This document shows positions 12,190 through 24,740 of a stretch of 40,437 nt of DNA, one piece after another (within the stretch, counting starts at the first letter, position 1; each line of letters starts with the position of its first letter). The notes under the pieces are model-generated. The model saw only the letters and a list, made by a program, of their open reading frames with translations, made no database searches and was not told the DNA's origin. The DNA is from Oscillospiraceae bacterium (lineage in GTDB: Bacteria > Bacillota > Clostridia > Oscillospirales > Oscillospiraceae), in NCBI GenBank assembly GCA_009776445.1, contig WRNV01000013.1, positions 1 through 40,437 of the forward strand. Direction: 5' to 3'. The position numbers and the translations under genes were made by a program.

Positions 12190-15100
12190 TTATACTATCC
12201 TCAAAACTAGTTGCGCGGTTAGGCCTGTGATTTTGTCTTTGATTTGGACTGGTACTGTGCCTGCTTTGGTTCCTGCTATGACTTTTCCGCTTGCCGCGTC
12301 GATTACGGCGAAACCGGGTACTAGCAGCGACCACTCAAAGTCTGTCGCTATCGCGAAGTTGCCTTCAAACGCTGAGTCAAATATGGCTTGGAATGTGTAT
12401 GACTGCCCGCGCGCGAGCGTTACCATTGCGGGGACATTGTCGGGGAATCCGATACTTGTTATCTTCTTCCCTAGCGACGCATGAGCCGCTTGCAGATCCT
12501 CTAGCGCCTTGTCTACGACAAGCTGCGTCGAGAACTCGTATTCGCTGGCGGCTACGGCGGCGTTGTATGCCGCTACATAGTCGGCCCAAATCCCGCCGGG
12601 CGCGTAGAATTCCTCTTCCCTGTCGATCGGCGAAATCTCTATCTCGGCGTCAAGCAAGGTTTTGTCTACGCTGCTCGCAATCGTTATGTTGTCAAGGACG
12701 TACTGGTCGAGGGTTGCGCCTTCGCTGACAATCGCTATGTCGTGCTGCCCCGCTGGAATCTGAACTCCTTTGATTTCGACATCCTGCCACTGGATAGCGC
12801 CGGTTTCCCAGGATGCGCCTGTGAGTTTCCGGTCGTTGACGGGCATTACAATGTCGCTCGTTTTCACGCCGTCAACATACAGCGCGGCTGTACGGACCGG
12901 GGCGTAGGCTTCGAATTCGGCAACCTCGCAAGTGGCAACAGAGCTATAGGTGAACACCACGCGGAGGTATCTGACTACCGTCGGGTCGAACTCAACGTCG
13001 ACATAATTGCCGGCGTTGGTGTATGGCGAGCTGGTGCGGGTAAACGAGTAGCGCTGCGAGGCTTTGAGTTCGACTAAGTTTTCTTTGTCAGTCCCGCCCC
13101 ACAGCGAGAAATCAGCAGTCCGCGAAGCTTGGTTGTTGCGCACTCTGATGCGAACAAGATTGATCTCGGTGGGGTTACGCAAGTCTATCTGCAGCCATTG
13201 CGGGGTTGTTGCGCTAACGCCTGTTACCGGCCAGTAAGATCCGATCTCCCCGTCGGTTACGTCGATTTGGTGTCCGTATCCACTGGTAGCGCTATATGTG
13301 CGCGTCTTTCCGAAAGCTTCGTCTTTGAGGTAGACGGCGGCGCGGAGCGACAGGTTGTATTCAAAAGCGACAGGGCTGTCTACGGTAAACGACGCTTTTT
13401 CTTTATATCCCGATTTCAAATCCGTTTTGAATCCGGTCGCGTATCCTGTACCTGAGAATCCGGCGATGGCGGACGCTTTGCTCACGCTGTCGGTGAAGAC
13501 AGCGTCTTCCAGCTCGAAGATCGTCGGGGTTTTTCCACTGAGCAGCAATGGTTCCGGATGGTTGATCTCGCGAAGTCTGCTTATGCTTGTGTTGAGCTTG
13601 GCGACTTCGGAAGCGACGCTTCTGCTTGATGCGTACTCATTGTCGTAAATGCCTTCCGCCTTCGCTATTTCGGCTTGAAGCGCCGCGAACGACTGGGGCG
13701 AATACGCGTATTGCCCGATTGCTTTAGCCTCATTGATCTTTTCCAGTAGTTCGCTCTTGCTGACCCCGAAATCCGAGTCCATGTCAAGGTGGGTATAGAA
13801 CGCCAACTGCGGGCCGATAGCCGAGCAGGGGCTTGCCAAATCTGTTGTGGCTGTTGGGACGGTTGCAAGGTTGACGCCGCACAGGCCGTCGGACATCCTG
13901 CGGTTCTTCCACGCGAGTTCCGCGTTCCAGTCGAGATACTTTCTAAACTCTTCGACACCGCCGTAGTTTACGACAGAAGCCGTCTGGCGGATCAGTATCA
14001 TCTTGAATCCAGAGCCGTCGCCTGTGCCTTCGCTGCCGGTTATCGTCAGGTTGTCGTTTTGTGAGAACCTATCCCAAGCGTTTCTGAGCACCCCGAGGCA
14101 GATATCCATGTACTCCTGCTCGCCTGTGATGGCGTATAGCTCGTACGCGGCACCCGCGAAGTTGCCGTAGTTATATGTATATTGCCCGGTGCTACGGTTC
14201 CCGTTGTAGCTTACATTGTCGTAGATATAGTAGTCCGTATCCCTGAGCAGATGCGCCTTAGCCCAGGCAAAGCCTTTTTTGGCTTGCTCAAGGTAAGCCG
14301 CGCTCTTAGCGGGGTCGATCGTCGCGTAATCTTTGGCCAGGCGCGTGACGACTATGCAAGAGTTGAGGTTCGAGCAGACGTTCTTTGACGCGTTTAGCGG
14401 GTTGATGACGTTGTCGCCCGCAGTCCGCCTCCAGAAGAAACCGCCGTACGGCTCTCCTCCGTATCCTGGCGTCTCGTCCCAGCTCTTCATGATCTCTTCC
14501 CACATCCACTCCGCCATGTCAAGGTATTTCTGATCTCCGGTCAGGCGGTACGATCTTTCAAAAGCCTGAGCCCACCAGCACAGGTCGTCTGTGTAGGTGT
14601 TGAACATCCAGTCATGTACGTCCCATGTGGGATGCCACTTGGACTCGATGAAACTCTCGAAGAGGCCGTCGATCATCGCTATGTATTTCGGGTTTTTCGA
14701 ATATTCCAAAGCGTCGTTAAACGTGTCGAAGATAAGCGCGGACAGCCAAAAATCTGTTTCGCGCCGTTTCTCGTACGTCGAGCCGCCGCCTTTTTCAGGA
14801 TTGTCAGTCCAGCGCCATGTGCTGATCCCGGCTGGGTTCCCATCTTCGTCGTAGTGCTCCCTCAGATAGGCGTCGATAAAATCTTGCATCATTTCTTCGC
14901 CGGCTGCGACGCTGTATTGTAGCGTGACACCGAGATACTTGAGCAGGTTGATGTACTGCGTCGTACCCTTGGCGCTGTTATTGGCGAGCCTTACGCTGTT
15001 CTCCCCTGCTTCCAGTGCAATGTCGGGGACTGAGACCTTGGACGAGTGGCTCCAGCCCGGACCGACAACCGGGAACGAAATAAGGTTTTTACTTGCATAC

Positions 15101-16998
15101 CCATTGACGGTGAGTTCCCTCGATGAGGCTGAACCGCTGTTGTTGGAATAGAAGAAATCAAGCGTGTATACACCGGTTTTTGGAACCGTAACATTGAATT
15201 CGACGTATTGGCCGTCGGTGGCGCCATTCCAGCCGTCAGTGTAATCCGCTATGGAATTCACGCCATTTAGCGCGACAGTTTGCTTTGGCGCAGCGCAGGG
15301 GGCGAGGTAATCCACGGCTAGATAGTCGAGAAATAGCCAGGAGTCCATATCCTGGTCGCTTGTCGGGTGGGTGTTTTTGTTGTAGTAAATAACCTTTACC
15401 GTATTTATGCCCTCGTTGAAGTAAGCGTAATATGGGAGGTCTTCCCAACGGTTGGCCGCCGTCCTCGTGAAATTGAGGATTGATATCGGGCCGTTGTTAA
15501 TGCTCAACCGGCGCGTGTTGTTGCCTCTTGTGTACCATCTGAAATTCAGCTTATATATCCCGGCCTCCGCTACCTCTACGTCGAAGCGTACATAGCCGTC
15601 CTGGACGTGTGGGCCGTCGGCGTCCCAATATTGCGTATATCCGGTACCGGTATAACCCGACTGGCTGCTGTCATAATTGATGTACTCATTCGACGCCGCC
15701 TCCGATTGGTATATGCCGTCTTTGCCATCAGTCAGGTCGATGAGGTCATAGCCATAATCCAGCGTCGGGTCGATACCGGTCCAGTATAGGAGCGCGGGTC
15801 CAAGGATCGCGCAGGGGCTTGCGATGCCTGCATCCGGTTTCGGCTTCATGGCAAGGTTTGAGCCGCACAGGCCGTCGGTCAGCCTACGGTTCTTCCAAGC
15901 TTGTACAGCGTTTGCCTTCAGGTATTTCTCGTAATCCACGAGGCCGCCTTTATAGACTATGTTGGCAGTCTGGCGCAGCAGTATCATTTTAAACCCTGCT
16001 GAGTCGCCCTGGCCTTCGTCCTTGATCGTCAGGCCGTCGGCGAGCGTCATTGAGTTCCAGCCGTAATTTAAGATATCTTTGCAGGTTTGCAGATAAATCT
16101 CATCGCCAAAGAGCGTGTACATTTCATAGGCGGCGCCCGCGAACATACCGTAGTTGTATGTAAACTGAGCTGTGGATTCACTCCCGCTAGAGTTTACGGT
16201 GTCGATCACATATCCGTTGCCTTTGTACAAATGGGCATATGACCAGTCGTAGATCTGTTTTGCTTGCGACGCATAGGCGGCGGATTTTACGCTGTCGGTT
16301 GCGGCGAGCGTCTTTGCAAGGCGCGCCGCTATCAGCGCCGCATTGGCGTTTGTACAGACGTTTTTGCCACTGGTTTGCCAGTTGTTGACGTTATTGTGCC
16401 TCCAGGTTATGCCGCCGTAAGGCGCGCCGCCATAACGAGTCGTCGGCGAAGACGCGTTTTCCCAACAGGACCATATCTCGGAGAACATATCCATCGATGT
16501 TTCAAGGTACTTCGTGTCCCCTGTCAACCTGTATGTACGCTCAAACGCCTGAGCCCACCAGCACAGGTCGTCGTTGTATGTGTTGTTATCCCAGACGTGG
16601 ACGTCCCAAGTCGGGTGGTATCCTGAGTTCATAAAGCTCTCGTATAGCGCGTCGAGCGTCACTTTGTGCTTTAGGTCTTTCGAATACTCTAGAGCGTCGT
16701 TGAATGTGTCGAATATGAGGGCCGAGAGCCAAAAGTCAGTTTCACGGCTTTTTTCGCCAGACGCGTTTGGCGTGTTCGTGTGGTCGCTCCAGCGCCAAGT
16801 GCTTTTCCCGACGGTCTGCCCTTGCCTGTTTAGGTGGTCACGCAGATAGACCGCCAGGAAATCGTCCATCATCGTGTCGGCAAAAACGTATGTTTCGTCG
16901 GCGGGAGCTGCAACTGCTGTGGCGGACATTGGGAGTACGATCGCGAAAACCATAATAAGCGCCAGCAGTTGTTTTATTTTCCCTTTTGTTTGTGTCAT
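12190..16998 (-). CDS. Secreted double GH76 alpha-1,6-mannanase with CBMs, FIVAR and Ig-like modules
   Basis: I chose the ATG at 16998 (MTQTKGK) because AAGGAGA lies 5 nt upstream; an in-frame start 7 codons earlier has none. Signal peptide 1-31 ends AVAA. Two GH76 barrels are present. The first, 40-415, carries YNDDLCWWA with the catalytic pair D143/D144. The second, 700-1080, carries YTDDLCWWA with D804/D805. They are separated by two CBM6/35-like sandwiches (425-567 and 572-695). Next come FIVAR 1080-1145, a CBM6/35-like module 1158-1442 interrupted by a complete discoidin domain (1226-1366), a second helical FIVAR-like stretch 1448-1510 and a C-terminal Ig-like (BIG2-type) domain 1511-1602. 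GH76 enzymes cut the alpha-1,6-mannan backbone of yeast mannan internally. The C-terminal ~90 residues differ at only six positions from the protein encoded just upstream in the same direction. Confidence 0.92.
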   Translation of the reverse strand: MTQTKGKIKQLLALIMVFAIVLPMSATAVAAPADETYVFADTMMDDFLAVYLRDHLNRQGQTVGKSTWRWSDHTNTPNASGEKSRETDFWLSALIFDTFNDALEYSKDLKHKVTLDALYESFMNSGYHPTWDVHVWDNNTYNDDLCWWAQAFERTYRLTGDTKYLETSMDMFSEIWSCWENASSPTTRYGGAPYGGITWRHNNVNNWQTSGKNVCTNANAALIAARLAKTLAATDSVKSAAYASQAKQIYDWSYAHLYKGNGYVIDTVNSSGSESTAQFTYNYGMFAGAAYEMYTLFGDEIYLQTCKDILNYGWNSMTLADGLTIKDEGQGDSAGFKMILLRQTANIVYKGGLVDYEKYLKANAVQAWKNRRLTDGLCGSNLAMKPKPDAGIASPCAILGPALLYWTGIDPTLDYGYDLIDLTDGKDGIYQSEAASNEYINYDSSQSGYTGTGYTQYWDADGPHVQDGYVRFDVEVAEAGIYKLNFRWYTRGNNTRRLSINNGPISILNFTRTAANRWEDLPYYAYFNEGINTVKVIYYNKNTHPTSDQDMDSWLFLDYLAVDYLAPCAAPKQTVALNGVNSIADYTDGWNGATDGQYVEFNVTVPKTGVYTLDFFYSNNSGSASSRELTVNGYASKNLISFPVVGPGWSHSSKVSVPDIALEAGENSVRLANNSAKGTTQYINLLKYLGVTLQYSVAAGEEMMQDFIDAYLREHYDEDGNPAGISTWRWTDNPEKGGGSTYEKRRETDFWLSALIFDTFNDALEYSKNPKYIAMIDGLFESFIESKWHPTWDVHDWMFNTYTDDLCWWAQAFERSYRLTGDQKYLDMAEWMWEEIMKSWDETPGYGGEPYGGFFWRRTAGDNVINPLNASKNVCSNLNSCIVVTRLAKDYATIDPAKSAAYLEQAKKGFAWAKAHLLRDTDYYIYDNVSYNGNRSTGQYTYNYGNFAGAAYELYAITGEQEYMDICLGVLRNAWDRFSQNDNLTITGSEGTGDGSGFKMILIRQTASVVNYGGVEEFRKYLDWNAELAWKNRRMSDGLCGVNLATVPTATTDLASPCSAIGPQLAFYTHLDMDSDFGVSKSELLEKINEAKAIGQYAYSPQSFAALQAEIAKAEGIYDNEYASSRSVASEVAKLNTSISRLREINHPEPLLLSGKTPTIFELEDAVFTDSVSKASAIAGFSGTGYATGFKTDLKSGYKEKASFTVDSPVAFEYNLSLRAAVYLKDEAFGKTRTYSATSGYGHQIDVTDGEIGSYWPVTGVSATTPQWLQIDLRNPTEINLVRIRVRNNQASRTADFSLWGGTDKENLVELKASQRYSFTRTSSPYTNAGNYVDVEFDPTVVRYLRVVFTYSSVATCEVAEFEAYAPVRTAALYVDGVKTSDIVMPVNDRKLTGASWETGAIQWQDVEIKGVQIPAGQHDIAIVSEGATLDQYVLDNITIASSVDKTLLDAEIEISPIDREEEFYAPGGIWADYVAAYNAAVAASEYEFSTQLVVDKALEDLQAAHASLGKKITSIGFPDNVPAMVTLARGQSYTFQAIFDSAFEGNFAIATDFEWSLLVPGFAVIDAASGKVIAGTKAGTVPVQIKDKITGLTAQLVLRIV

Positions 16999-17030
16999 TG
17001 TGTCTCCTTCTTTCTGCATTTGTATATATG

Positions 17031-17075: not shown

Positions 17076-17921
17076 TTATACTATCCTCAAGACTATCTGC
17101 GCGGTAAGTCCGGTGATCTTGTCTTTGACTTGAAGCGGTACTGTTCCTGCTTTTGTCCCTGCGATGACTTTTCCGCTTACTGCGTCGATAGCGGCGAAGC
17201 CAGGCACTAACAGCGACCATTCAAAATCTGTCGCGATCGCAAAGTTGCCTTCAAACGCGGAGTCAAAGATTGCCTGGAAGGTGTACGACTGCCCGCGGGC
17301 AAGCGTTACCATTGCCGGTACGTTGTCGGGGAATCCAACACTGGTGATCTTCTTCGCTAGCGTGTCGTGCGCATCTTGCAGATCCTCAAGCGCTGCGTCG
17401 ACTTCGAGCTGTGACGAGAACGGATATTCGCTCGCTGCTACAGCCGCGTCGTACGCTTCAACATAGTCGCCCCAAACTTGTGCGGATACGCTGAATTCTT
17501 GTGGCCTGTCGATTGGCGAAATCGCGATCTCTGCATCCAGCTCGTCTTTTTCTACGTCGATCGCCACTAGGGCATCGGCTGAACCAGCGGCTGAAGCTAC
17601 GAATACTTTAAGAACCAAACCTTTAAGTGCTACGTTATCAATCGCAAATTCGACATCGTTCTCTTCACCATTTTCGAGGTCGTATTGATCAAGATATACA
17701 AGATCTCCGCCGACTACTTTTGCCGCCCTCAACGATGCCCATACCACTTTGTCAGCGCCGGCTAAATTATATTCCACAGAGACGACGCCGTCATCGTGAG
17801 CAGCTGACACTTCGCTAATTTCGGCGGCAGCTAAAGATACTCCGCCAAACGCGGTAATCAGCGAAAATAACATCGCGAGGGTCAGTACAATGTTTATTAC
17901 TTTCTTTGTATTAGTTTTCAT
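17076..17921 (-). CDS. Small secreted surface protein sharing its C-terminus with the GH76 enzyme
   Basis: I do not recognise a named family for the whole protein. The frame is open further upstream, but the ATG at 17921 is preceded by AAAAGGAGT and starts a typical signal peptide (MKTNTKK, hydrophobic core, LAAAE near 30-34), giving 281 residues. Residues 40-125 form a beta-rich domain resembling the FLW-type modules of the GH proteins (WASLRAAK, then LKVFV). Residues 126-190 are FIVAR-like helices. Residues 191-281 are an Ig-like BIG2-type domain ending VLRIV, with 86 of 92 positions equal to the GH76 C-terminus. No catalytic domain and no LPXTG are present. It probably resides on the cell surface as a binding or scaffold protein made together with the mannanase. 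The leader upstream is long and structured. Confidence 0.8.
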   Translation of the reverse strand: MKTNTKKVINIVLTLAMLFSLITAFGGVSLAAAEISEVSAAHDDGVVSVEYNLAGADKVVWASLRAAKVVGGDLVYLDQYDLENGEENDVEFAIDNVALKGLVLKVFVASAAGSADALVAIDVEKDELDAEIAISPIDRPQEFSVSAQVWGDYVEAYDAAVAASEYPFSSQLEVDAALEDLQDAHDTLAKKITSVGFPDNVPAMVTLARGQSYTFQAIFDSAFEGNFAIATDFEWSLLVPGFAAIDAVSGKVIAGTKAGTVPLQVKDKITGLTAQIVLRIV

Positions 17922-18356
17922 TGATAGTACTCCTTTTCTCTTAATTGTGAAACTCGCAAATCGTCCGACGTCATGTCGGCTTTTTGAGTTGTGTGACAAC
18001 TGTTTCCACTCACCACCCTTAAAATGACTGATTGCGGAACTCAAAAACCGCGTGATGGTAAAGCTTTTGAGTTGCTTAACAATCGATTCCTTATCACCTT
18101 CCATCCATTCACCTTATCCGCAAGGGGGGGGGGACACCCTCGCATAGGTTTCTTAGTTAAATCGGAACGCAGTCACAGCGCCCCTTGGAGGATACTGAGC
18201 GGCTCCAGAGATCCCTCGTTCCTCTCCCTATTTGCCTAGACGCCAACGTTTAGTTGCGGCGCCTTTACATAAACACAGCCAACGGAATCACGCGGATTAA
18301 ATACTTTGTTCCACTAAATCCGCGCTCTACCGCTGACACTGTTTTATTCAATTTTA
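17922..18356 (-). promoter_or_regulatory. Long structured 5' leader region of the 281-aa surface protein gene
   Basis: No gene is supported in these 435 bases. On the minus strand I see nested helices: 18227-18231 with 18144-18148 (ATAGG/CCTAT), 18217-18222 with 18164-18169 (GGAACG/CGTTCC), and 18211-18217 with 18188-18193. A run of ten G on the + strand (C in the message) follows at 18124-18133. Two ~36-nt imperfect direct repeats lie at 18063-18098 and 17979-18014, and a CCGAC/GTCGG hairpin at 17965-17979. This may be a cis-regulatory RNA of a class I do not recognise. No clear promoter hexamers were found. Confidence 0.4.
18292..18323 (-). terminator. Possible terminator downstream of the sortase gene
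   Basis: GCGGATT (18292-18298) pairs with AATCCGC (18317-18323) over an 18-nt loop, about 33 nt after the sortase stop on the minus strand. There is no strong T tract, so the role is tentative. Confidence 0.35.
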
Positions 18357-19013
18357 TCAGGAATAACTTTCATATCCGGCTATACTCTCCAATTTAAAAC
18401 GCACAACCATACGTTTGTTAGCAACTCTAATGGGCGTACATGTTATAAGCGTACACGCTTCAAACTCTTGCTCAGATATAACATCCCAGCGCGAAGGTAG
18501 AACCACGATACTATCATAAAAAACATACGTATATACGTTTTGATTATAAATGAGATATACTCTGTCATCTTTGCCAACGCGGTCAAGATAATAAAATGTT
18601 TCGCGGTTTCTATGTCCAGCTATACTAACATTCGCTCCCTGCTGACCAGGCATTGCTGATGATTCAAAAAGCCCGGGCCCTTTTTTTAACGCGGCCTGCG
18701 ACGTCCCATCTTGAACAACCTTATCGAAATCCAGCGCTGGTATAATAAGCCTTATTTCACCTTCAATATAGTCGAGCCGCTCTCCCGAAACAGGCCTAAA
18801 TCCTTCAACATCCTCGCCAAATGGAATTTCTAAATACACAGGGAATTCTTCGTCTTCAAAACCATATCCTAAGGGATCACGACCTATCACTTCATCAACG
18901 AAGCTATCTAGTGGGTTATCCGGTCGATATGGGCGCGTTATCTCGAAAACAGCCGCTACTGCCGTCAATATAATAAGTACACCAAGAATTACGCGAACGC
19001 GGCGGATGATCAT
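18357..19013 (-). CDS. Sortase, class D-like transpeptidase
   Basis: The 218-residue protein has an N-terminal membrane anchor (8-24, after RRVR) and then a sortase fold: IPALDFDKVVQDGTS, AGHRN with H134, TLITCTP with C192, and R201/R205 in RMVVRF. These are the His, Cys and Arg of the sortase active site; the TLxTC form fits class D and related enzymes. It should cleave the MPQTG motif of the protein encoded directly upstream and link it to cell-wall peptide or to another subunit. Its ATG overlaps the upstream stop as ATGA, so the two are translationally coupled, and AAAGGAGAGG lies 11 nt before the start. It is the last gene of the SipW/sortase gene set. The base composition is more AT-rich than the neighbouring glycosidase genes. 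Confidence 0.92.
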   Translation of the reverse strand: MIIRRVRVILGVLIILTAVAAVFEITRPYRPDNPLDSFVDEVIGRDPLGYGFEDEEFPVYLEIPFGEDVEGFRPVSGERLDYIEGEIRLIIPALDFDKVVQDGTSQAALKKGPGLFESSAMPGQQGANVSIAGHRNRETFYYLDRVGKDDRVYLIYNQNVYTYVFYDSIVVLPSRWDVISEQEFEACTLITCTPIRVANKRMVVRFKLESIAGYESYS

Positions 19014-19891
19014 TCCGCTACGTTCCTCTCCTTTTTTGATCTTCTTTGATTATAAAACGTCACACCGAAAAATAATGTACAAAGTATCGCGAGTACTACC
19101 GCCAGTGGCAGCACAAATGTCCTGATCCCGCCTGTCTGCGGCATACCGGATTGTGTTGAAACAAGTACTACGTTAGGGTCTTCAATGACATTATCAGATG
19201 CTCCATTCGCGTCCAGGCCTGTACTTTCTTTGTCAGCAAGCGGAATTTCATCTTCATCGACAATCAGGGCACCGATATCTTGCAAACTGTTTCCATCTTT
19301 AGTATTCCCATTAGCTACAGACTGTGGGCTTATCGCAACTGCTTTAAACTCCCAATTCGCTTCGCAAACCTTTTCCATATACTTATTGCCTACAGTATTT
19401 GCGATGTTTACAGTAACAGTTATTAACCCTTCTTGCGAAGGCAAAAGCGTCCCTAACCGCGCTCCATCTTCGGAATATAAATCCGAACCTACGCTGCCTC
19501 CAAATTTTCCTCTATAAATTTCTCGTTCTGGAGCTGAATTCCCACTTCCCTTAAATTTAAACGTCACCAAAATATCAATCGAATCATATAATGTCGCAAT
19601 CTCGACATCGGCACTATTTTCAGGTTGAGCGATAAGGTAGAAATCGGCTGAAAATTTGCTATTATTACTCAGGGTTACTTCTGTGGTGGCTTCAAGCCCC
19701 GGGGCAAGGTCTTTCGTTTTATCGCCGAATAAATCCTGGGTGGTCAGATGCCAACTATCCGCACCTCCCTCGCCATTAAACGTAACTTTGGGATCCTCAA
19801 TAGCTTTCCCGGATGTCCCCATAAGAACAACGATCAATAATATGATCGGTATAAGCCGCGCTATTCTTATTTTAACGGATTGTTTTCTCAT
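19010..19891 (-). CDS. Sortase-anchored surface protein with MPQTG signal
   Basis: 293 residues. Signal peptide or anchor 1-30 (RKQSVKIRIARLIP, then a hydrophobic core). A beta-rich ectodomain spans about 33-185. Its LAPGLEATTEVTLSNNSKFSADFYL stretch, shown here only as its position 62-86, matches the layout seen in camelysin/TasA-like proteins, where a PG turn precedes a beta strand with NNS. A linker rich in D, N, S and E spans 186-248. The sorting signal MPQTG is at 250-254, followed by a membrane segment 257-280 and a basic tail NQRRSKKER. The sortase gene overlaps its stop codon, so it is almost certainly that sortase's substrate. The first position of the motif is Met instead of Leu. 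AGAGACAAA with TGGAGAG upstream serves as RBS. It may be the wall-anchored base or minor subunit of a surface fibre. Confidence 0.88.
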   Translation of the reverse strand: MRKQSVKIRIARLIPIILLIVVLMGTSGKAIEDPKVTFNGEGGADSWHLTTQDLFGDKTKDLAPGLEATTEVTLSNNSKFSADFYLIAQPENSADVEIATLYDSIDILVTFKFKGSGNSAPEREIYRGKFGGSVGSDLYSEDGARLGTLLPSQEGLITVTVNIANTVGNKYMEKVCEANWEFKAVAISPQSVANGNTKDGNSLQDIGALIVDEDEIPLADKESTGLDANGASDNVIEDPNVVLVSTQSGMPQTGGIRTFVLPLAVVLAILCTLFFGVTFYNQRRSKKERNVAE

Positions 19892-20046
19892 TTTGTCTCT
19901 CCAGTTTCATACTCAGACACTAGAACTACATTTCTTCTAACTAAAAGATTGCAGCATTCTCCGGGATTAGCGTCTATTTATGCTCTATTAACATCACAAA
20001 AACAACTATTTGTAAGAACAGACATACAGTCACGCTGACTGACGCC

Positions 20047-20733
20047 TTAGTCACCTTCGCTAGTATCTAAGACGTCATTGTAGCTCCACACCTCGTAGTT
20101 ACTCCAAACTTCGTACACTTCCGTTTCCGCTTCCTCGCCGCTCTCTTCGCCGGCTCCAGCGGTAATATTACCACCATCATTCACAATGCGCTCTTCTGAG
20201 CCTTTATCTTCCTCTATCTCTGTTTCTTCTTCTGGGTCGTCATCTTGAGCTTCGCTAATGACCTCGCCATCATCTAACTCGTTGACATCAGTCATTTCTA
20301 TGTTATCCGCAGGGTTGTGCGCACTCATTCCGCGTCCGCTGCGGTTTTCGCTAAAATTAGAATTATCTTCATCAGCCTCGATATCATCATTATGAATCTC
20401 TTCGCTGTCTTTGTCAATCTCATCTTCTAATTCTTTTTCGGTTTCATCGGAAAAAGAATCATCTGTTTCGTCTTCGGCTTCCTCGGTCTCTTCGGCTTCT
20501 TCCATTAGCAGCCCAGCCGATCCAACTTTTCCCGCATCTTGTAATATTTTTTCAAGCTCAGCAAGGTCAGTTGTCATTGGAACACTTTCGCCCGAACATA
20601 TTAGCCACGCTCCAGTCAGAACGCCAAACAAAAGCGACGCTCCCATAAGTACACAAATTAAACCGCCAAGTATATATCGTTCTGGGTATGCTTTACCCTT
20701 ATTTGTCTTCATCATTGTAGAAAGTAATCTCAT
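20047..20733 (-). CDS. Highly acidic single-pass membrane protein
   Basis: No known family recognised. The ATG at 20733 is preferred because GAGGAAG lies 8 nt upstream; a TTG three codons earlier and a double ATG at 20715/20712 are alternatives. The start lies inside the 3' end of the SipW-like gene (35-nt overlap), implying coupled translation. A single membrane segment is seen near residues 25-45 (GGLICVLMGASLLFGVLTGAW covers most of it). The remaining roughly 160 residues are extremely rich in Glu and Asp (for example EEAEETEEAEDETDD) and low in complexity, ending with a repeated YEVWS/YEVWSY motif. It could act as a charged surface spacer or a calcium-binding tail, or assist secretion of the fibre subunits. 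The gene is conserved in frame between two clearly functional genes, which argues that it is real. Confidence 0.75.
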   Translation of the reverse strand: MRLLSTMMKTNKGKAYPERYILGGLICVLMGASLLFGVLTGAWLICSGESVPMTTDLAELEKILQDAGKVGSAGLLMEEAEETEEAEDETDDSFSDETEKELEDEIDKDSEEIHNDDIEADEDNSNFSENRSGRGMSAHNPADNIEMTDVNELDDGEVISEAQDDDPEEETEIEEDKGSEERIVNDGGNITAGAGEESGEEAETEVYEVWSNYEVWSYNDVLDTSEGD

Positions 20734-21418
20734 TGGAATCAACTTCCTCTATAATTTCATCTAAGGCCTCATCTTGCCTTGCGCTGTCTTCTCCCTCTCC
20801 CATACGTCCCTTGTAAGTCTCCTCCGAGTCGGCGCCTACCTTGGTATCGTCCATCTCTATCAGGTTTGAGTCGCCGTCTTCTGAATCCCCTGCCGCTACT
20901 AAAACTTTGCTCTTTTTCGAACTTTTTATAATACCAACTACGCACAGTAATAGCCCTATAGCAATGACGCCAATACCTATATATTTTACGTTGCCAATCA
21001 TACTAACAAGAAAACCATTTCCTGGTATGACGAACGTCACCCGTCCTATCACCATATCGTATCCGAACGGGCGGTCGTTTGCATTGTTTGCATCGCCTCT
21101 CGTCATATATAGATAGCTGCCCTCATTTTCCGTTATCGCCGTCACGCGGTGCGTCAATACAATTGTCTTGTTTCCTATGAAAAAGGTAATCACGTCATCC
21201 ACTTTTATTTGATCAGGCTCGACAGCTCTTACATACACAATGCTTCCTACCGGTATATTAGGCTCCATGCTCCCGGAAGCGATAATAAAGAAGCCTGTAC
21301 CCCATGGCGAAAGTAGACTTTCATCTCTAAGAAGGGCGCCAAGAGCAATCATGACGCTAAGTAATAGTATGAGCACTAGCACAATCACTCCGGCTATTTT
21401 TAAGATTTTCTTTATCAT
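20699..21418 (-). CDS. sipW: SipW-like (ER-type) signal peptidase I
   Basis: The ATG at 21418 (MIKKILK) is preferred, with AGGATGG about 7 nt upstream; a GTG 18 codons earlier is also in frame. The N-terminal membrane helix is 8-30. The catalytic serine is S50 in SGSMEP. The second catalytic residue is H90 in LTHRV, replacing the lysine of ordinary bacterial signal peptidases, which is the hallmark of the SipW/archaeal/ER type. Conserved aspartates D109 and D115 lie in TRGDANNANDRP. A second membrane helix spans 145-165, and a 70-residue acidic tail follows that is unusual for the family. SipW-type enzymes process TasA- and camelysin-like fibre proteins, and such a protein is encoded just upstream. 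Here the acidic tail resembles in composition the next protein in the operon. Confidence 0.9.
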   Translation of the reverse strand: MIKKILKIAGVIVLVLILLLSVMIALGALLRDESLLSPWGTGFFIIASGSMEPNIPVGSIVYVRAVEPDQIKVDDVITFFIGNKTIVLTHRVTAITENEGSYLYMTRGDANNANDRPFGYDMVIGRVTFVIPGNGFLVSMIGNVKYIGIGVIAIGLLLCVVGIIKSSKKSKVLVAAGDSEDGDSNLIEMDDTKVGADSEETYKGRMGEGEDSARQDEALDEIIEEVDSNEITFYNDEDK

Positions 21419-21490
21419 ATGACAGCCCATCCTGTAGATTGCTTGAGCGTTTAGTGCCCGGCTTTTATCCACTTGCTCCGCTGGGTTTAG

Positions 21491-21545
21491 GGGCGCCCCA
21501 TCTGTCGACCGGGGCGCCCTCCCAGCCTGCGGGTTATAAGCCCGC
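21491..21545 (-). promoter_or_regulatory. Two strong stem-loops between the TasA-like and SipW-like genes
   Basis: GGGCGCCCC (21491-21499) pairs with GGGGCGCCC (21511-21519). GCGGG (21529-21533) pairs with CCCGC (21541-21545). On the minus strand neither is followed by a T tract. Placed directly behind the fibre subunit gene, they could stabilise its mRNA or limit readthrough into sipW and the genes behind it. Confidence 0.6.
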
Positions 21546-21575
21546 CGTTTTCTTTCTGTTTAGACCAGCCTACTA

Positions 21576-22586
21576 CTAGTTAAGGCCGTTCGCACCCATG
21601 ATCGCATACTTGAGCCATGTTTCTGGAAGCGTGTTCAAATATGCCTCAACGAGCTCTTCCTGTTGGTCGTATGAGCCAAATGGCTGAAGGCCGCCTGGCA
21701 CAACTTCGTCCGGATACACGCCGTCGCCGCCGAATGGATCAGTAGCGCCCGCGTCATACGTAATAAATGTAAAGCCATCTAGAGCCGTAAAGAATGGCTC
21801 ATAAACGCCACCGCCGACATCATAAACTGGGGTTGGGACGTCGAAACCAGCGCCTGGGAATGCTTCATAGTCTTGAATTACCACACCAGGAAGTATCGCT
21901 TCAACAGCCGCTAAAGGATCCGCCTGCACGGCGTTCCACTTCAGTTGCACATCCACGAAAGAACCTTGATAATCGGCCTTAGGATTGGCGACAGTGCTAT
22001 CACCATAAAGGCTCGGGTCAAGTATCAGGTTGTAAGCAAAATGCAAGTCGTCATTGCCAAACATCTGCACATAGTACTTGCCGTCGGCGCCTACGAGCCA
22101 GTTGTAGGAGTCAAAGTCGCCGCTGAGTGGATAGTAGATGCCCCAAGTTCCGAGCTCGTGAGTCTTTTTTAGTACAGTAGCCGCGCCAAAGGGATCGTTT
22201 ATAAAGGTGGTCTCGTCTTCGATAATCTCGACTCTGGCTTTAGTCGCATCTTCAACTGGTCCCCAAGTTACAACGCCCTGGGCATCCGCGTCGTATATAG
22301 TCGTCTTGATGTCGAGCTGGCAGAGTGCGTTGAGCGAGCCAACATTCTTAATCCACGCGACTCCCTCATAGTATACTTCGGTTCCGGGATAGTTGAAAAC
22401 CAGACCCGCGTCTTCAATTTCCAAGTCTCCGTCTACAATTAGCGTGCCGAGTTCAATCGTATTGACTGTGCCCCCTCCGGAGCTGGTAAACCATGCGAGC
22501 GATAGGCCCATCAACAGGATCGCCACCCCGAGCGTCATTGCTACGAGGCCGGTGATCGTTCTTTTGTTCTTCATCAGTTTTTTCAT
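21576..22586 (-). CDS. TasA/camelysin-like secreted protein with SipW-type signal peptide
   Basis: 336 residues. The start has AAAGGAGAAGG upstream. The leader MKKLMKNKRT, hydrophobic GLVAMTLGVAILLMGLSLA and then WFTSS matches the SipW-dependent signal peptide type, with cleavage expected near 31-38. The mature part begins with a beta strand rich in small residues (GTLIVDGDLEI), as in TasA and camelysin. It also contains NVGSLNALCQLDIKTTIYDA, LKWNAVQADP and a long acidic, proline-containing C-terminal half (225-336) that I cannot assign. There is no sortase motif. It is the first gene of the set with SipW, the acidic protein, the MPQTG protein and the sortase, and is likely the major fibre or surface-layer subunit. 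Product identity as a fibre former is inferred. Confidence 0.8.
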   Translation of the reverse strand: MKKLMKNKRTITGLVAMTLGVAILLMGLSLAWFTSSGGGTVNTIELGTLIVDGDLEIEDAGLVFNYPGTEVYYEGVAWIKNVGSLNALCQLDIKTTIYDADAQGVVTWGPVEDATKARVEIIEDETTFINDPFGAATVLKKTHELGTWGIYYPLSGDFDSYNWLVGADGKYYVQMFGNDDLHFAYNLILDPSLYGDSTVANPKADYQGSFVDVQLKWNAVQADPLAAVEAILPGVVIQDYEAFPGAGFDVPTPVYDVGGGVYEPFFTALDGFTFITYDAGATDPFGGDGVYPDEVVPGGLQPFGSYDQQEELVEAYLNTLPETWLKYAIMGANGLN

Positions 22587-22853: not shown

Positions 22854-23384
22854 CTACGCCCTCCGGCCTTTCCACCCGACCAAGTTCTCGTCATCCACTT
22901 CTTCCATCAGGGCTTCGTCCATAAGCCTAAGCATCTCAAGGACGCTGCGGAAATTTTGCTTCAGGTTCTTTTCGGCCCATATTATCTGGCCTTGCCAAGT
23001 GGCATTTTGCCTGAACCTCACCGCAATCTCAAAAGTGCATTTCGCGACTTCCAGTCCTTCAGTAGCCTTTATATCGATGATATCTTTCATAGCATAATTC
23101 TTCACCGTTTTGTTTTTTCTCACAGCCTGCCGACTGTCGCTAAAAGCCCTTGGCTTCAGGAACATCATCGGAAAGCCCTTTGAGTCGAATATTTCTTCCA
23201 TCTTTTCGATCATATATATTACGTCGAAAAAAACACACGGCGCCTCAAGATATTGGCTGTGCAGTTCTCCCCTGATCGTTCCGTCGTTAAAAGAGGAAAT
23301 CTCCGCCCGCATCATGACCGTCACAGTCGTAACGATTGATTTACTACCGGTTTCCAATGGTTTTGCCGCCTTTCGCCGGTTCAT
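22854..23384 (-). CDS. Conserved-looking hypothetical protein next to the BTAD regulator
   Basis: I cannot name the family. The 176-residue soluble protein has no signal peptide. It starts with a beta-rich half (TIRGELHSQYLEAPCVFFDVIYMIEKMEEIF, positions about 36-66) and ends with helices (WQGQIIWAEKNLKQNF, then RSVLEMLRLMDEAL, 131-160). The aromatic and charged pattern looks like a genuine protein. The ATG at 23384 has no RBS. A TTG at 23357 has AAAGGCGG about 9 nt upstream and may be the real start. A TATAAT lies only 9 nt before the ATG, which fits the later start. It follows the BTAD regulator on the same strand after 144 nt and may belong to the same regulatory unit. Confidence 0.65.
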   Translation of the reverse strand: MNRRKAAKPLETGSKSIVTTVTVMMRAEISSFNDGTIRGELHSQYLEAPCVFFDVIYMIEKMEEIFDSKGFPMMFLKPRAFSDSRQAVRKNKTVKNYAMKDIIDIKATEGLEVAKCTFEIAVRFRQNATWQGQIIWAEKNLKQNFRSVLEMLRLMDEALMEEVDDENLVGWKGRRA

Positions 23385-23528
23385 CTTGTATCTGATTATA
23401 AGTCCAAATTGTTACGGATGTGTTACATCTTCTAAATTTTTTTGATCGAAATGATCTGATTACAAACCAAAATAAAGTGGCAAACAATTCTTGGATTTCC
23501 GCTTTCCATGATTTCTTAACGCCAGTCG

Positions 23529-24740
23529 TCAGAATATGGGTTTGAGCGGTTTTATCGATACTCCGATGATTTTCGGCAGGTATTTTGTTTCCAGCGAATA
23601 CATGATCCTATCGATCAAGGATTTACAGTCTTCATACGTCAAATTGTTGAGCATTAGCATATATTGGTTGGGCGTGGCGCGCGTAAACATGTCGCCCTTG
23701 CGCAAGCTGCGCGGGATCGCGATGGCGAGCTGCTTCATGACGCCCCCGTTTTTCGCGCGCGGTTCGTGTTTTGCATCAAACCTCGCTATGAATGTAGTGC
23801 GCCCTGATCGCGACATCGAACGCGCTTCTATCTGGCAAATGGTCTTAAAAGCGGTGATATCGCAATAGTAGGCGCCGGCATAGTCCGCGTCTTTGAGGAA
23901 GTCGTCGATCACTGCTTCCAGCGAGGCGCCTTCCCTTATGACCGGCTTTTGTATTTGATTGTAAAGAGCGCAAAGGTTCTCCGAAAACTGTACGCACAGT
24001 ACGTCATAGAACATGGTTTCCATTCTCTTGTATTCGTCCACAGCCTCTGTGTTTTTACCCTGCGCTAGAAGCGACCGCAGCCTATACTCCAGCAATTGTT
24101 CGTCAAACGGGTCCGTGCGCAACGCTTTAGCGCAAAGTTCCTCCGCTTCGACGCTGCGCCCAGTGCGCGTCAACAATTCCAACGCGTCGTGGGCGCAGTT
24201 TATGTACATGGATCGATACCAGCGGGCAAGCGGTATTACCCACATGTCGCCGGCTGAGTTCGGCAAAAAGTCGCCTTTGTAGAGGTCGGCTGCCTGCAGA
24301 AGCAGCTCCAAGCGCTCATCGTCGCCTACGCCAGTTCCCGCTTTTTTGCATAGATACTCAAACTGCTCGGCGTCGACGACGCATTTTCTGGCGTTATTCC
24401 ACGCATACCCGCCGCTTTTTGCGAGAATCAGTTCCTCGGCGCGGGGCAACCCGGCTTTGACAAGCGCGGCACGAGCGCGGCTTACCATAGTGCGTAACGC
24501 GCTTCCAGGATTCGCGACGAGTTCGCCATCGCAAAAAACATTGATCAGTTCATCTTGGGAAACCGATTTGTACCGGTTCGCTATCAAATACTGGATCAGT
24601 TTCCAAACCTTTGAGGCTTTTCCAACCTGTTCGGTAATGCAACTCTCGCCAGAAAGGATAGCAAACCCTCCCAGCATTTCGACCTTCAAGTTGACATCAT
24701 TAGTATTAATGCTGATTACTCCCTTTCGCAAACATCGCAA
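23529..24740 (-). CDS. SARP/BTAD-type transcriptional regulator with degenerate GGDEF-like C-terminus
   Basis: 403 residues as counted from a TTG. Domains: OmpR-type winged helix about 18-112 (KVEMLGGFAILSGES, then KVWKLIQYLIANRYKSVSQDEL), bacterial transcriptional activation (BTAD/TPR) domain about 118-270 (WYRSMYINCAHDALELLTRTGR, then AEELCAKALRTDPFDEQLL), and a 285-400 region. The latter resembles a GGDEF domain (RKGDMFTRATPNQYMLMLNNL) without the GGDEF residues, so it is probably a sensory or dimerisation module and not a cyclase. SARP-like proteins bind direct repeats near promoters and activate transcription. Start codon is unclear: the best SD (GGGAGT) sits 7 nt before an ATT codon at 24710, and no ATG is available near it. 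It may control the adjacent fibre operon or the sugar genes; this is a guess from position. Confidence 0.85.
   Translation of the reverse strand: MRCLRKGVISINTNDVNLKVEMLGGFAILSGESCITEQVGKASKVWKLIQYLIANRYKSVSQDELINVFCDGELVANPGSALRTMVSRARAALVKAGLPRAEELILAKSGGYAWNNARKCVVDAEQFEYLCKKAGTGVGDDERLELLLQAADLYKGDFLPNSAGDMWVIPLARWYRSMYINCAHDALELLTRTGRSVEAEELCAKALRTDPFDEQLLEYRLRSLLAQGKNTEAVDEYKRMETMFYDVLCVQFSENLCALYNQIQKPVIREGASLEAVIDDFLKDADYAGAYYCDITAFKTICQIEARSMSRSGRTTFIARFDAKHEPRAKNGGVMKQLAIAIPRSLRKGDMFTRATPNQYMLMLNNLTYEDCKSLIDRIMYSLETKYLPKIIGVSIKPLKPIF

Follow-up and report, generated by a model that had tools for sequence, protein, structure and literature searches.

We analysed a 40,437-nucleotide (nt) stretch from an Oscillospiraceae bacterium (contig WRNV01000013.1 of assembly GCA_009776445.1), referred to below in its full length as the window, and examined a gene group at 18357..22586 that combines a SipW-type signal peptidase and a putative fibre subunit with a sortase and a protein bearing the sorting motif MPQTG. 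Five minus-strand open reading frames (ORFs) were present, and in the order of transcription they encode a TasA-like protein, SipW, an acidic single-pass protein, the MPQTG protein (hereafter the anchor) and the sortase. A preliminary description had given these five genes in this order with overlaps at two junctions, which the ORF list and the sequence bore out: with the likely starts read from the sequence, sipW shares 14 nt with the acidic gene, and the anchor gene shares 4 nt with the sortase gene. The features are listed below from the upstream end.

23529..24740, minus strand: BTAD/SARP-type regulator, 403 amino acids (aa); PF03704 at 1.5e-13, weak Trans_reg_C match, weakly GGDEF-like C-terminus
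22854..23384, minus strand: orf176, a 176-aa protein with the motif NATWQGxIxW; homologues in related sortase loci, alignment
21576..22586, minus strand: TasA/BsaA-like secreted subunit with the SipW-type signal SLAWFTSSGGGTVNTIELGTL, 336 aa; leave-one-out profile E=2.8e-13
21475..21580, minus strand: strong RNA stem-loops on the 3' side of the TasA-like gene, before sipW, without a T-run; fold z=-3.79
20699..21418, minus strand: predicted SipW signal peptidase, 239 aa, with a long acidic C-terminal tail; TIGR02228, conserved Ser/His/Asp
20047..20712, minus strand: acidic single-pass protein, 221 aa, starting within the 3' end of sipW; ORF list
19010..19891, minus strand: anchor protein, 293 aa; leave-one-out profile E=2.4e-20
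19130..19144, minus strand: codons of the MPQTG sorting motif; read from the sequence
18357..19013, minus strand: sortase, 218 aa, between classes C, D and E, with H134, C192 and R201; PF04203 at 9e-26
18230..18360, minus strand: strong stem-loops 3' of the sortase gene; fold z=-5.25, equalled by none of 200 shuffles

The five genes are confirmed, and orf176 and the BTAD regulator lie upstream of them on the same strand. Homologues of both upstream genes adjoin related sortases in relatives, and the unit therefore probably runs to 24740. The sipW ORF spans 20699-21472 with a likely ATG at 21418, and the acidic ORF spans 20047-20742 (231 aa) with a likely ATG at 20712. The stem-loops between the TasA-like gene and sipW, which fold at -48.5 kcal/mol (0 of 200 shuffles as good), possibly mark a step-down in expression, and those after the sortase gene are likely to form the 3' end of the unit. 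A further terminator suspected by eye directly 3' of orf176 was rejected, as its folding was no better than that of shuffles (z=-0.10). Promoter-like sites were no more frequent than chance predicts (11 against an expected 12.0), and terminator-like sites were close to that level (11 against an expected 7.9).

The second gene can be assigned by sequence as a SipW signal peptidase. The protein matched TIGR02228 with 88.6 bits (cut-off 51.85), and its Ser, His and Asp columns, which we take to be the catalytic residues of the endoplasmic reticulum (ER)-type enzymes, were invariant in all 102 aligned sequences, including that of the window. The NF046067 model, an equivalog for Bacillus SipW, gave 74.5 bits against a cut-off of 190. 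We also observed that the long acidic C-terminal tail of SipW (20699-20950) adjoins the strongly acidic neighbour protein, for which a net charge of -55 was computed for the 231-aa ORF. The acidic protein reached no family over the cut-off and, at E<=10, matched nothing save itself among the ORFs of 101 loci, the window included.

When searched as single sequences, the TasA-like, acidic, MPQTG and 176-aa proteins did not reach the curated cut-off of any family. For the TasA-like protein in particular, none of the curated TasA/BsaA models (TIGR04090, NF046066 and PF12389) was matched at E<=0.01, and a phmmer search of the PDB with this protein alone returned matches of E>=0.2 only. A profile of 48 SipW-linked proteins built without it recovered it with E=2.8e-13, the best of 1000 shuffles reaching 0.087. 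In the alignment of 49 TasA-like proteins, TIGR04090 (the BsaA family) and TIGR04088 (the SipW-type signal) were each matched by 33, PF12389 by 28 and NF046066 (TasA) by 7 (E<=0.01 for the TIGR and NF models); these proteins were picked via a signal-motif and tail filter, so that 33/49 is a biased rate. The family profile, with the window protein included, matched the TasA chains 8aur and 5of1 (E=0.0017). We thus regard the first gene as encoding a predicted divergent TasA/BsaA-type protein. Its C-terminus has neither a transmembrane stretch nor a sorting motif, and no second TasA-like protein was found in the same genome at E<=0.01.

The anchor consists of a Sec-type signal, a weakly TasA-like domain, a linker of about 60 aa, MPQTG, a hydrophobic transmembrane stretch and a basic tail. 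It thus has the signal peptide, xPxTG motif, transmembrane stretch and basic tail of a sortase-anchored surface protein, although the LPXTG anchor model TIGR01167 scored 12.4 bits, under its cut-off of 15.9. A profile of 14 relatives built without the anchor found it over residues 14-289 with E=2.4e-20 (best shuffle, 0.23), and it covers positions 9-229 of the anchor-family profile. These relatives lie near SipW genes and have in common a Sec-type signal, the domain, the linker and, mostly, a sorting signal of the TG type followed by a basic tail. No anchor among the 15 matched a SipW-signal model at E<=0.1, whereas 33 of the 49 TasA-like proteins matched TIGR04088 (E<=0.01). All 15 aligned anchors share an invariant Pro-Gly pair, which lines up with LKPGD in TasA; in B. 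subtilis, the TasA 'proline box' sits at the protomer interface, according to PMC10151520. The anchor-family profile also matched the TasA chains 8aur (E=0.0037) and 5of1 (E=0.0081). From these alignments, the anchor is likely a relative of the TasA domain. PDTDD or PDTND replaces PxTG in three members of the anchor family (L100:2466-3122, L147:13384-14052 and L149:2378-3046), which have either lost the sorting signal or answer to a different sortase specificity.

To describe recurrence in relatives, all ORFs were scanned in 74 regions chosen by SipW alone, with neighbours counted within 9 kb. Fifty-four regions were drawn from the top portion of the TIGR02228 matches listed for the order, so that their fractions are not order-wide rates, and 20 were chosen by similarity to the window SipW; loci L137-L139, which had been selected for sortase nearness, were excluded from the counts. 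Among the 54 upper-list regions, 46 had a TasA-like gene, 22 an anchor by a loose rule (profile match plus C-terminal hydrophobic stretch), 20 both, five a sortase (L115, L123, L132, L133 and L146) and four all three. The corresponding numbers in the 20 window-SipW-like regions were 10, 6, 5, 3 and 0. Under a strict rule requiring the profile match to run across the domain, anchors were present in 18/54 and 4/20 regions, and 17 and 4 of these also had a TasA-like gene. Anchors with a TG motif were counted in 13/54 and 4/20 regions by a motif rule that missed the AQTGD of L131. SipW, a TasA-like protein and an anchor therefore occur together repeatedly, and now and then a sortase lies close by as well. 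Sortases were modestly enriched around SipW (5/54; P=0.004 at a chance rate of 2% and 0.06 at 4%, these rates being rough guesses). Accordingly, the co-occurrence of five genes suggested by the preliminary description was found in part: SipW, TasA-like protein, sorting-signal protein and sortase recur, and the acidic protein, without a match in 101 loci, does not.

These counts bear on the possibility that the MPQTG protein is displayed by itself, as a surface adhesin or receptor, with the TasA-like fibres merely coating the cell. The weak domain similarity between the anchor and TasA leaves room for such a role, as does the contact between anchor and subunit, which we infer. On the other hand, domain-wide anchors stand by TasA-like genes in 17 of the 54 SipW regions and have the Pro-Gly pair in common with TasA, and we consider a separate adhesin quite unlikely.

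The sortase matched PF04203 with 90.5 bits (cut-off 26.6), and His134, Cys192 and Arg201, presumably the catalytic residues, were invariant in 10 aligned sequences. The class-specific models fell below their cut-offs (class E, 76.4 of 160 bits; class C, 68.8 of 160; class D, 60.1 of 165). We compared six loci with SipW, a TasA-like protein, an anchor and a sortase, namely the window, L088, L115, L123, L133 and L146. In all six, the sortase gene lies downstream of the anchor gene on the same strand; the gaps are -4, 64, -50, -1 and 65 nt in five loci, and in L123 one further sorting-signal-like gene stands between them. In all of them but L133, the anchor match runs across the domain. The paired sortases fell into three separate parts of the sortase tree: class B (L123, L133 and L146), L115, and the BTAD-linked group (the window and L088). 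As the window branch is long (2.54) and its placement weakly supported, we limit the claim to three separate groups. Under the class B model, L133 and L146 scored over the curated cut-off, and L123 had its best match there but under the cut-off; the L115 sortase was over the cut-off of the generic sortase model, and its best class model was class C, yet below that model's own cut-off. Because the paired sortases belong to three lineages, the pairing with an anchor seems to have arisen repeatedly. Different sortases thus repeatedly pair with the same kind of gene, which argues that the anchor is a sortase substrate, and the MPQTG protein is with good probability the substrate of the adjacent enzyme. 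All three class B loci have D directly after TG, and the remaining three do not (two-sided Fisher p=0.10).

The genome has three sortases, the window enzyme and two of class B on contig C35 (L036:295-7389), where a pilus-like cluster also encodes two pilin-like proteins and LepB-like and SipW-like signal peptidases. This cluster resembles the window in having sortases, a SipW-like peptidase and sorting-signal proteins; it differs in that the pilin-like proteins bear the sorting signals themselves and the sortases are of class B. One of its pilin-like proteins ends in PKTGD, compared with MPQTG in the window, and the two sortase systems of the genome may therefore be orthogonal. Since SipW-like peptidases occur in pilus-like clusters of the genus, both here and in genome G013 (L047, class B by our own profile), the window could encode an ordinary sortase-polymerised pilus for which SipW is merely the signal peptidase. 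However, the TasA-like subunit is without a sorting signal, and a sortase could therefore not polymerise it; moreover, a single sorting-signal protein is present and the sortase scores below the cut-off for class C. A pilus is thus highly improbable.

The window sortase group is uncommon. It was found in 13 of 394 genomes of the order (E<=1e-12) and 4 of 351 of the class (E<=1e-35), the source genome included in both, and in 2 of 250 genomes of the family of L088, that of L088 included. For comparison, 21 distinct loci were selected by a window-type sortase with wide flanks; seven of the 12 foreign order-level matches were examined with wide flanks. Outside this count are the five weakest matches of E<=1e-12 apart from G370 and G197, which were seen with 1.5 kb flanks only. 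A homologue of the BTAD regulator was present in 14 of the 21 loci and one of orf176 in 11. The regulator, orf176 and sortase form a recurrent cassette (window 22854-24740, L070, L072, L076, L082, L084 and L156), and the regulator and orf176 adjoin the SipW set at L123 and L131. A large LPxTG-like protein replaces the SipW set at L070, L075, L076 and L156. As L088 carries the SipW set and some other related sortase loci a large LPxTG-like protein, the regulator cassette seems to take different cargo. From about residue 334 onwards, the regulator also matched diguanylate cyclase models weakly, in every case far under the cut-off. orf176 retains an N-x-x-W-Q-G motif and has no family name; neither Pfam nor NCBIfam gave a match at E<=1. 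Near the cassette at L070, L076, L083 (on the same contig as L070) and L086, ORFs read by eye included type IV pilus/type II secretion-like genes (GspF-like, pseudopilin-like and PilT-like) and a transglutaminase-like protein.

Locus L088 (Lachnoclostridium sp. UBA5725, Lachnospiraceae) carries the set independently. Its gene order is a divergent BTAD regulator, a 1299-aa VWA-domain protein, SipW, two TasA-like proteins, the anchor and the sortase. The anchor motif is LAKTG, and the sortase is 35% identical to that of the window. No homologue of orf176 or of the acidic protein was found within the 19 kb of this contig.

Building on the gene content, homology, conserved catalytic residues, recurrence and adjacency described above, we propose the following model. 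SipW would act on the TasA-like subunit, cutting its SipW-type signal and freeing an N-terminal strand, which would enter the next subunit in the manner of the TasA donor strand in B. subtilis. The MPQTG protein, exported by its Sec-type signal, would accept a donor strand and give none, since it has no SipW-type N-terminus, and would thereby serve as the base subunit. The adjacent sortase would then cleave MPQTG and join the base subunit to peptidoglycan. The BTAD regulator would control the unit, and the stem-loops after the subunit gene may keep the subunit more strongly expressed than the remaining genes. The reading that fits the locus best is a TasA-like fibre matured by SipW, with a base subunit that bears a sorting signal and a sortase encoded next to it, and we assign it a probability of roughly 0.55. 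The role of the anchor as fibre base is a weaker part of this model than its role as sortase substrate.

Several observations weigh against this model. The stretch shared by the anchor and TasA is short (54 profile positions in 8aur), and the hhalign comparison of the anchor and TasA-like families gave a probability of 96% over 29 columns only, which is why we grade the anchor as a likely and not a proven TasA relative. The L133 anchor covers profile positions 135-227 only, making one of the six pairings less sure. The pilus-like loci L047 and L138, where the profile matches at one end only, also have a sortase just downstream, and same-strand order alone is therefore not special to TasA-like anchors; L138 combines a partial anchor match with a sortase and TasA-like genes and is read as a pilus-like cluster. 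No sortase was found within 9 kb in 49 of the 54 and 17 of the 20 SipW regions, and 20 of the 21 related sortase loci were without the SipW set, L088 being the sole exception, so that sortases of this type mainly handle other cargo. Contig C200 of the same genome (L158:1-1617) encodes a further LPQTG surface protein, a possible second substrate, and the window sortase may therefore not be dedicated. Finally, in C. perfringens, where srtB lies in the 5' flank of sipW-bsaABCRSD, srtB deletion left BsaA polymers and pellicles unchanged, as reported in PMC7395162; this dispensability calls for caution in assuming a function here.

An alternative is that the genes are neighbours without a joint function, in which the BTAD-orf176-sortase cassette serves its own LPXTG cargo, a SipW-TasA-like matrix operon has landed inside it and the fibre is free like BsaA. 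The large LPxTG-like proteins that stand in at four related sortase loci agree with this view, as does the apparent lack of a role for srtB beside sipW-bsaA in that source. The G+C content at third codon positions (GC3) was 0.34-0.44 for the sipW, acidic, anchor and sortase genes, 0.56 for the TasA-like gene and 0.64-0.71 for the nearby glycosidases, and the unit may thus be a mosaic. However, the anchor and sortase genes overlap, the order of anchor then sortase on one strand recurs in six loci with three sortase lineages, and anchors that match across the domain accompany SipW and TasA-like genes also at loci without a sortase in the vicinity. We consider unrelated neighbours rather unlikely. 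Because SipW matches of any sort were sparse in congeners (5 of 18, identity 27-34%) and GC3 is below that of the glycosidases, the SipW-to-sortase unit was probably acquired. Viral contigs yielded no relative for the SipW, sortase or TasA-like queries. The source assembly comprises 3.5 Mb in 279 contigs, with 89% completeness and 6.35% contamination.

We compared the proposed system with known ones. TasA/SipW fibres and sortase-built structures had initially been called normally separate, which is too strong in view of the C. perfringens srtB gene by sipW-bsaA (PMC7395162) and of the SipW-like peptidases in this genome's own class B cluster. Given that C. perfringens neighbourhood, the gene combination is not wholly new. 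C. perfringens resembles the window in that SipW, a secreted polymer protein of the TasA/BsaA type and a sortase gene stand side by side in a clostridial genome, and in a predicted terminator with read-through after the subunit gene (PMC7395162). In contrast, BsaA polymers are mainly extracellular, and that source gives no predicted LPXTG-like motif in BsaA; in the window, the sortase gene overlaps a sorting-signal gene. In B. subtilis, TasA fibres arise through N-terminal donor strands (PMC9674648), and tapA-sipW-tasA resembles the window in its SipW-processed subunits, donor-strand fibres and companion protein for fibre initiation (PMC9674648, PMC10151520), the window fibres being putative. 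It differs in that TapA is a SipW substrate donating an N-terminal strand, whereas the MPQTG protein has a Sec-type signal and a sorting signal. In Bacillus cereus, a wall-retained companion protein, CapP, organises TasA-type filaments (TasA/CalY); unlike the proposed system, it is termed sortase-independent by its authors, with CapP held via its disordered C-domain (PMC13082335). In the open-licence literature, the titles and abstract openings among the matches listed contained no description of a sortase-anchored TasA-type fibre.

The glycosidases next to the cluster (GH92, GH2, GH76 and GH38) had led to the idea of a link to mannan and adhesion to yeast. These genes are real, but around L088, the independent copy and the one locus inspected by eye for this, no such glycosidase was seen and the neighbours instead resemble peptide-transporter genes; the idea found no support and was dropped. 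Within the window, a near-identical C-terminal Big_2-like domain (ITSxGFPDNVPAMVTLARGQSYTFQAIFDS...) is present in the GH76 protein (12190-17019) and in a short secreted protein (17076-17921).

More broadly, it is tentatively proposed, at slightly less than even odds, that TasA-family fibres of Clostridia may have a TasA-domain base with a sorting signal, beside whose gene at least three sortase lineages would have been recruited independently, one of them with a cargo-swappable BTAD cassette. The TasA-fibre and sortase machineries are usually studied apart, and how TasA-type fibres are attached to the cell is still debated (TapA, CapP). If the model is true, a sorting-signal base with an adjacent sortase would provide a clean genetic and chemical handle on fibre attachment, and fibres regarded as loose matrix would be wall-rooted appendages in a range of Clostridia.

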